Assembly (NCBI GenBank): GCA_002238415.1 | Contig: MPMI01000029.1 | Span: forward strand, 1-64,000 | DNA from: Desulfurellaceae bacterium bin18 | GTDB lineage: Bacteria > Desulfobacterota > Binatia > Bin18 | Direction of reading: 5' to 3' | DNA length: 64,000 nucleotides | Shown: positions 22,537-34,902 of the stretch, piece by piece | How positions within the stretch are numbered: the stretch's first letter is position 1 | Layout: each line of letters starts with the position of its first letter | Notes under the pieces: generated by a model | Told to the model about the DNA's origin: nothing | Databases searched by the model: none | The model's input: only the letters and a program-made list of their open reading frames with translations | Program-made: the position numbers and the translations under genes

Positions 22537-22562
22537 AGCTGGTTCGTCAATATGACAAGGGA

Positions 22563-22914
22563 TGGAGGCGGCGGGAATCGAACCCGCGTCCGAGAGTAGT
22601 CCACTCAAGGCATCTACAATGCGTAGCTCGTAGTTTAATCTCATCCTCGGGCCTCCTACGAGCAGGATGCCCTCAGACCAGCCAAAGTAAGGTTTCGGGC
22701 GCGCACCCTTCGGCACGATGCGAGCCTTATCCCGATTTGTGTCGCCTTAGCCAACCCTACGGGCGCGGATCAGTAAGACGCAAGCTGCTCTAGGCAGCAA
22801 GAGCGTAATCAAAATCGTCTGCAGTTAAATTGCAGCCTGTCCGTTTTACGGGCGGGACAGAACCCCGGCATGCAGCCCTGGCTTTCTAGCCCACGTCGAA
22901 ACCAGATCGCCCCC
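22563..22914 (-). ncRNA. ssrA: Transfer-messenger RNA
   Basis: The 5' end GGGGGCG (22914 downward) pairs with CGCCUCC at the 3' end (22570-22564), with discriminator A at 22563; CCA is not encoded. The T-arm GGGTTCGATTCCC and the 5' GGTTTCGACGTGG are typical. The tag frame reads NLTADDFDYALAA and ends at TAG 22790-22792. tmRNA frees stalled ribosomes and tags the peptide for degradation. smpB, its protein partner, lies directly upstream on the same strand. Confidence 0.95.
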
Positions 22915-33894: not shown

Positions 33895-34170
33895 AGACCC
33901 ACCCCACCGCTCGCGAGGCACCCCTCCCGAGCGGAAATGGGGAATAAGCAAACGGCACCCCTCCCTTCTCTTGTAGACACTAGACCTTTGAAACATTTGG
34001 GCGTAGGCTGGGTGTAGTTTTTCGGTCGGGCTGACACAGCCCGCGGCGTTTCTGCCCCTATGATGCGATAGGACAGAGCGGACCGAGCCTCGGGCCGGTA
34101 GCGGCGATCGGTTCCTGGCTGAAGCGGATTCTGGACCCGCGCTGGGTACGCCGAGAAAGGAGGTGGTCTA

Positions 34171-34215
34171 GTGCAGTTATCAACGACGGTGATCAGTGAG
34201 GTGGTGGCCTCTTAG
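34171..34215 (+). CDS. Possible leader peptide (14 aa)
   Basis: GTG 34171 stands two bases after a near-maximal Shine-Dalgarno sequence. The frame encodes MQLSTTVISEVVAS and stops at TAG 34213-34215, inside the first stem of the RNA. There is no run of one amino acid as in classical attenuators. Its short length means it may not be translated at all. Confidence 0.35.
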   Translation: MQLSTTVISEVVAS

Positions 34216-34268
34216 GCCGACCTATCCCAAATCGGGTGGTCGCTTGGGAGGACCAGGCACCACCGTGA

Positions 34269-34333
34269 CCCCGGCAGCCCGTGTTCATCACCCACGGGAC
34301 GTCCTCGCGGACGTAGCACTGTCGGGGTTTTTT
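34269..34333 (+). terminator. Branched rho-independent terminator
   Basis: The outer stem CCCCGGCAG/CTGTCGGGG (34269-34277 with 34319-34327, one G-U) encloses two hairpins, CCCGTG/CACGGG (34278-34283 with 34293-34298) and ACGTCC-TCGC-GGACGT (34299-34314). T6 follows at 34328-34333. It would end transcription 33 bp before the next ATG. Confidence 0.75.
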
Positions 34334-34365
34334 CTGAGGTCTGGCAATAATACGGATCGTAAAAA

Positions 34366-34902
34366 ATGTGTAACAGAGATGAGATAAGGAATAGTGTCTG
34401 TCAGGCATTGACCGAGGTGAATGATCGTCTGAGAGGTCAAGGGGCATCCGATACAGAGTGGACGACAGCTATCAAGACTGCACTCTGTCAAGCGGGTCAT
34501 GGTCTAAATTATCTTGTGGCCGCATCGCTCGACAGAAACAGGGTAGTAGCAGGATGCGCAGGCGGCCCCGACTTTGGGGAATGGCTTTTCGATTTAGTTT
34601 GGATGTTCTGGCATGGAGAACCACAACGACAATTGAATCGCATCTGTCTTGTCGTCGAATCGGAATGGGGAAATCGCGGTGACATCATGGACGATTTCGA
34701 GAAATTGCTCGTGGCTCGCTCAGATGTTCGCTTAATGATTTTTCAGGCGTCCAATGAAGTAGAAGTAAGAAAAATGTTTGACTTGCTTGAAAGGGAAGCG
34801 CAAGGATTTGAACAAAGCCAAGCTGGAGATTACTACCTTCTTGCCGGTTATGATTGTGAGGGCTCGATCTTCCTGTGGCGTGAACTCCAGGTAGAGCGTT
34901 AG
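34366..34902 (+). CDS. Hypothetical protein (178 aa), possible degenerate nuclease fold
   Basis: The frame is open from ATG 34366 to TAG, with lower GC than its neighbours. Residues FGEWLFDLVWMFW, then LVVESEWGNRGDIMDDFEKLLVARSDVRLMIFQ, recall the E-x-E...K core of PD-(D/E)XK folds (strand with acidic residues followed by a helix with Lys). This is a weak structural guess. No strong ribosome site precedes the ATG. It starts just after a structured RNA with terminator and overlaps the end of the minus-strand gene by four bases. Function unknown; the composition hints at transfer. Confidence 0.6.
   Translation: MCNRDEIRNSVCQALTEVNDRLRGQGASDTEWTTAIKTALCQAGHGLNYLVAASLDRNRVVAGCAGGPDFGEWLFDLVWMFWHGEPQRQLNRICLVVESEWGNRGDIMDDFEKLLVARSDVRLMIFQASNEVEVRKMFDLLEREAQGFEQSQAGDYYLLAGYDCEGSIFLWRELQVER

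Follow-up and report, generated by a model that had tools for sequence, protein, structure and literature searches.

The window, a stretch of DNA of 64,000 nt, encodes at about 34012-34335 a stand-alone structured RNA about 320 nt long, which is homologous to Ms_IGR-5 and is found, almost always in single copy, in at least eight bacterial phyla. Everywhere it is defined by the same trio of features: an extended Shine-Dalgarno (SD) sequence, a tiny open reading frame ending in GAGGUG-N9-stop, and pairing of the frame's codons with the strand that precedes the terminator and with a loop of the terminator. It is proposed, at somewhat better than even confidence, that this RNA is ribosome-gated: translating its own tiny frame would open or close the fold, and the RNA would act in trans.

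Anatomy and extent of the RNA

The preliminary description had placed a candidate structured RNA at 34156-34333, with a 13-base anti-Shine-Dalgarno match, a 14-codon frame and a branched terminator. All three elements are present (Table 1), the terminator being three-way with a T6 run that ends at 34333, but those bounds are too short, as conserved structured sequence reaches back to about 34012. The 13-base match AAAGGAGGTGGTC can pair, with one G-U, with the whole single-stranded 16S tail; the tail used is the common bacterial one, a 16S 3'-end pattern having matched in none of 13 genomes, in which the rRNA seems to be masked. The pattern AAAGGAGGTGRTCYA has a single occurrence in its own 5.2-Mb genome, and its reversed control gave no match in the same genome search. 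It was present in nine of the 12 relatives searched, once in each except for one extra match beside an assembly gap, and in the own genome and its congeners it always lies at the same site. The minimum free energy (MFE) is -83.3, compared with -68.9 +/- 4.4 for shuffled sequences (z -3.3; 0 of 200 as low). Positions 34096-34335 are 93-99% identical to five congeners and identity collapses to 28% from 34336, so the conserved unit ends at the T-run.

Table 1. Predicted elements of the RNA gene (window positions)
Element	Position	Strand	Basis or detail
Predicted promoter	33980..34009	+	CTAGACC (33980-33986, -35-like), 17 nt, TAGGCT (34004-34009, -10-like); inference
5' hairpin CGGGC-UGACACA-GCCCG, conserved ACACAG loop	34027..34043	+	both stem sides change in relatives
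Binatota-type 5' structured domain	34060..34145	+	RNAalifold and identity within the genus
Extended Shine-Dalgarno AAAGGAGGTGGTC	34156..34168	+	complementarity to the 16S tail
Tiny ORF, GTG start, 14 codons, TAG stop, VQLSTTVISEVVAS*	34171..34215	+	GTG CAG TTA TCA ACG ACG GTG ATC AGT GAG GTG GTG GCC TCT TAG
Pseudoknot 5' strand GGUGAU, within the ORF	34188..34193	+	partner 34287-34292
Internal SD-like element GAGGUG, separated from the stop codon by exactly 9 nt	34198..34203	+	
Helix A 5' strand GGUGGUG, within the ORF	34200..34206	+	
Alternative local hairpin GGUGGU-C-GCUUGG...CCAGGC-ACCACC, competes with helix A	34235..34264	+	MFE, both-sided changes
Helix A 3' strand CACCACC	34258..34264	+	CGCCACC with GGUGGCG in congener L006
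Three-way intrinsic terminator, T6	34267..34333	+	11-bp outer stem 34267-34277/34319-34329, two inner hairpins, T6 34328-34333
Pseudoknot 3' strand AUCACC, loop of the terminator's first inner hairpin	34287..34292	+	

The RNA of Binatota probably begins near 34012. Relatives carry promoter-like elements at the same position as the predicted promoter of the window (CTAGACC/CTGGACC-N17-18-TATAGT/TAGAGT/TACACT), and promoters lie directly upstream of the RNA in L100, L101, L108 and L212. Copies from Binatota and Rokuibacteriota share an extra 5' domain, in which the ACACAG-loop hairpin is followed by a conserved structure of about 90 nt; the copies of Actinobacteria and Zixiibacteriota start instead at UACACA, about 10 nt before the SD. 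The stem of the hairpin is GGAGC/GCUCC in L017, GAGGU/ACCUC in L020 and GAGGC/GCCUC in L036. RNAalifold on 20 sequences of the 5' domain gave -16.9, against -0.7 +/- 1.1 for shuffled columns, and 34060-34145 is 91-97% identical within the genus. The Binatota-specific part (34012-34150) also includes a hairpin or palindrome of the form GCGG(G)-NNCTGG-NCCCGC about 20 nt before the SD, and palindromes resembling it precede the copies of Myxococcota and some of those of Acidobacteriota.

The tiny frame and its pairing partners

Among 143 unique homologues, most of them collected with a pattern whose bases were fixed through GUGG and which left stop and start free, 142 have their stop as the seventh codon, the Cys of CEVxxx being the first (TAG in 127, TGA in 10 and TAA in five). 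After the SD, 142 of the 143 have a NUG or AUU start in frame; for the two other frames the counts are 36 and 21. The covariance model R1 was made from 38 sequences, carries no structure other than helix A and is blind to the frame; of its 76 unique matches 75 end in E-V-x-x-x-stop, the exception being L259 (a script returned 68, and seven that were mis-anchored or had no standard start were added by eye). The residue preceding E may be C, R, S, G, T, M, L, A or V, the N-terminus is variable, and the three residues after V vary freely, with compensating RNA changes. The E itself is encoded by GAG and the V by GTG with no synonymous codons, apart from two AAG exceptions. Because the flanking residues vary while the GAG and GTG codons stay, the constraint falls on the frame and the RNA, not on the peptide. 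At the level of aligned homologues, this comparison shows selection on the frame, its start, the position of its stop and the RNA, the encoded peptide not being conserved. GAGGUG sits 6 nt ahead of the last sense codon, which is the usual Shine-Dalgarno spacing. Four Acidobacteriota copies (L217, L219, L220 and L221) have the GAGGUG codons twice in the tiny frame (SEVxYRTREVxAT*), and in these only the second GAGGUG is at the fixed distance from the stop.

Helix A joins GGUGGNN of the frame to NNCCACC immediately before the terminator. Across phyla 94.2% of cells are paired, with 46 both-sided changes against 15.7 in shuffled data, and sliding the helix by one position lowers the paired fraction to 27% and 43%. 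GGUGGUA/UACCACC in L028 adds to the forms found in the window and L006 (Table 1). Of 34 Binatota-type sequences folded by energy alone with the 30S site masked, 4 formed helix A, so in Binatota this helix rests on covariation.

The 5' strand of the pseudoknot consists of the bases right before the UGUGA of the frame (or its equivalent), and its partner is the loop of the terminator's first hairpin. The GGUGAU/AUCACC of the window is replaced by GGUGAA/UUCACC in L008, GGUGUU/AACACC in L025, GGAC/GUCC in most Actinobacteria, GGAUG/CAUCC in Kitasatospora, and UACGGCG/CGCCGUA, UACGGUG/CACCGUA or UACGACG/CGUCGUA in Myxococcota. The mean complementary run is 5.26. Permuting the partners gives 4.32 (highest of 300 permutations, 4.56) and shuffling the loops gives 3.68; in Myxococcota 97.8% is paired, with both-sided changes. 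Restricted to Binatota-type sequences, the permutation test is weak (5.84 vs 5.66) because most members share the same letters; the comparative case for the pseudoknot draws its strength from the whole set and from Myxococcota.

The preliminary description had proposed a covariance search for homologues and a check of the leader codons against the stems. The search returned homologues in many phyla with compensatory changes in helix A and the pseudoknot, and the codons of the frame do lie in these two elements, both of which show such changes.

The 3' strand of helix A can also enter the local hairpin at 34235-34264. With the start region of the window masked, helix A (plus a second helix that covers the stop codon) and this hairpin are within 2 kcal/mol of each other; when the whole frame is masked, the hairpin forms alone. 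Both-sided changes are found in it (GGUAGU/ACUACC in L012 and GUUUGG/CCAGAC in L008), and it is missing in L017- and L022-type members; the putative toggle between helix A and the local hairpin is lineage-specific. Long insertions lie between the tiny frame and the 3' strand of helix A in L018, L035 and L063.

Distribution, neighbourhood and candidate mechanisms

BLAST found the element in 37 of 58 relatives. R1 matched in 69 of the 118 genomes searched in the class, and in 75/198 Actinomycetota, 40/247 Acidobacteriota and 52/235 Myxococcota, with one match per genome save for one duplicate at an assembly gap. Other phyla yielded single finds. Outside the class the distribution is patchy, as a phylum-wide sample gave 3 of 148 genomes. 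A pattern scan of GTDB gave at least 120 matches; among the matches listed, most are from Mycobacterium and other Actinomycetota, accompanied by Rokuibacteriota, Manganitrophaceae (Nitrospirota), Zixiibacteriota, Myxococcales, Solibacteraceae and several deltaproteobacterial MAGs. A phage origin was considered and rejected, the pattern having 0 matches in viral contigs. In Saccharopolyspora rosea (L104, around 3453, minus strand) the RNA seems to have been cut just after the stop by an IS-transposase-like insertion with loss of the 3' domain, and in this organism the RNA may be dispensable.

The ORF that follows in the window (34366-34902) encodes a hypothetical protein with no Pfam match. It is missing beside the RNA in all six congeners, where an opposite-strand gene and holA come next, and it appears to have been inserted recently, separating the RNA from the opposite-strand gene adjoining holA. 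No conserved co-directional gene was found right after the terminator in the six congeners, none of the neighbours was noticed to be conserved across phyla in a non-exhaustive comparison, and conserved flanks were seen within Mycobacterium and within Binatota only. This setting bears on the suggestion, made earlier, of an attenuator for the gene at 34366 and, more generally, on a role as transcription attenuator or leader for a downstream gene. The order of a small ORF, alternative hairpins and a terminator followed by another ORF is indeed leader-like; the ORF is nevertheless peculiar to its own genome, and similarity ends at the T-run, which leaves this explanation with hardly any probability, and it was rejected. 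Identity with tmRNA was likewise dismissed, since the tmRNA match of the window lies elsewhere: a tmRNA gene is found at 22560-22914 on the minus strand (172 bits).

Comparison of sequences shows the anatomy of the RNA, its conservation and its stand-alone position, with no conserved downstream gene. The same stretch appears to be contested by the ribosome and the fold, and the following model is suggested. A 30S subunit would dock on the SD and start codon beside the folded 3' domain, and translation of the 14 codons would strip helix A and the pseudoknot. With the stop where it is, GAGGUG would lie at Shine-Dalgarno spacing from the ribosome during termination and may hold it there; in the lineage of the window the freed 3' strands would then pair together at 34235-34264. 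The RNA could thus be a switch that reports initiation or termination capacity, with its output in trans. More tentatively, the frame may be part of a tertiary fold, knotted to the terminator loop, with the second, SD-like element parking the terminating ribosome, which would make the RNA a general bacterial sensor of ribosome initiation and recycling. Ribosome sensing and the holding of 30S subunits, both raised in the preliminary description, are possible mechanisms that sequence alone cannot tell apart.

The second of these could take the form of a decoy, in which the maximal SD and the short frame hold 30S or 70S and lower initiation elsewhere once the RNA accumulates. An SD complementary to the whole 16S tail, the ribosome-protected reads on mycobacterial homologues and a start-to-fold distance of at least 13 nt, which fits a docked 30S, are what a decoy would be expected to display; it would, however, need near-ribosomal abundance, and it leaves unexplained the conserved stop position, the use of three stop codons, the open frame and the pseudoknot with the terminator loop. 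We regard it as unlikely. It is quite unlikely that the RNA is a base-pairing sRNA with a secondary ORF, whose 3' strands (CACC, UCACC) or loops pair with the SD regions of other mRNAs. CACCACC and AUCACC do resemble the 16S anti-SD, the gene is stand-alone with a terminator, and the M. smegmatis homologue is listed among sRNAs, but the 3' strands are engaged in conserved pairs and, unlike a fixed seed, co-vary with their partner in the ORF (GUCC in Actinobacteria, AUCACC in Binatota). The strictly kept frame, start and stop and the nearly invariant EV would also suit a tiny mRNA, for which a peptide of 10-17 residues is the product and the RNA a mere messenger. We give this little credence, as the fixed GAG and GTG codons are explained by helix A and the SD-like element, and the residues before E and after V, like the N-terminus, are variable.

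An sRNA family filed as actinobacterial, with no function assigned, turns out to occur widely, nearly always with one copy per genome, and its design centres on ribosome engagement. A stop codon and an SD-like element stand at one fixed distance across phyla, and codons of the frame pair with the terminator loop; these two properties supply concrete point mutants for testing whether bacteria devote an RNA to reading or tuning how many ribosomes are available. For Rfam there is room to merge and enlarge the family, and the frame should be included in gene predictions.

Relation to known systems

An SD-like element in frame just upstream of a stop codon is also present at the programmed frameshift site of prfB (RF2). 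Neither a frameshift product nor a downstream frame is present here, and the likeness is at most geometric. SgrS/SgrT, SR1 and RNAIII are dual-function sRNAs that carry a translated ORF, and their peptides are conserved products. In the present RNA, by contrast, no conserved peptide product was found, residues varying except where pairing or GAGGUG fixes the codons, and the codons of the ORF are themselves RNA structure.

The Caulobacter sRNA CC2171 (RF01867, cut-off 75 bits) has a near-identical 5' end (GAAAGGAGGUGAUCCAGUG) and a terminator that directly follows a helix formed with the 5' part, but its consensus has no visible GAGGUG-N9-stop, and the window scores 15.5 bits, below the cut-off. 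The Binatia homologue L212 (1492-1676; promoter TTGACA-N17-TACAAT, frame MIDKCCDCEVAET*) scores 30.7 bits with RF01867 and 26.9 bits with RF02471, both below cut-off. Its sequence possibly bridges to the alphaproteobacterial CC2171 family, a putative relative.

For Ms_IGR-5, Ribo-seq reads were reported in M. abscessus and M. smegmatis, with the caveat that footprints on an sRNA are possibly RNP artefacts (PMC4974804). The S. avermitilis homologue is its own transcription unit with mapped ends (PMC8780764), that of S. lividans was confirmed by RNA-seq (PMC8079986), and that of M. smegmatis was detected as ncMSMEG15794c and listed among sRNAs (PMC10454040). The frame and the pseudoknot were not found named in PMC4974804, PMC8780764, PMC8079986 or PMC10454040, and no earlier functional description was found in the literature searched, mostly outside subscription journals; the family-wide anatomy appears to be undescribed before. 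These transcripts and ribosome footprints of actinobacterial homologues add to the covariation and the homologues in many phyla, which together strongly support the earlier view of a structured RNA with a ribosome-engaging leader and a tiny frame.

An Rfam scan of the feature gave no match above cut-off. Against RF02471 (Ms_IGR-5, curated cut-off 45 bits) the window scores 24.4 bits (E 0.0021) in a full-length alignment, below the cut-off, a congener 26.5, two other Binatota 27.5 and 32.1, and a Zixiibacteriota copy 37.6. Above the cut-off are Binatia L166 (49.1), Acidobacteriota L214 (50.3), Streptomyces (73) and Mycobacterium (175); the scores form a chain from Mycobacterium down to the window. 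The control genomes of Caulobacter and Thermus match RF02471 weakly, below the cut-off. The Binatota form differs in its 5' domain of about 110 nt and its three-way terminator, and the structure line of RF02471 shows neither the ORF nor the pseudoknot, yet the RF02471 consensus reads ...WTCEVAAR* in frame. The window shares with Ms_IGR-5 the same 5' motif, the GUGAGGUGG core, the strands of helix A and the terminator; alignment and pair counts place AAGGAGGUGGUCC ... GUGAGGUGG and the helix to the pre-terminator strand in the window as well, together with the GAGGUG-N9-stop found here in actinobacterial Ms_IGR-5 members. Without claiming strict Rfam membership, we conclude that the feature is a diverged, below-threshold homologue of the orphan sRNA Ms_IGR-5.
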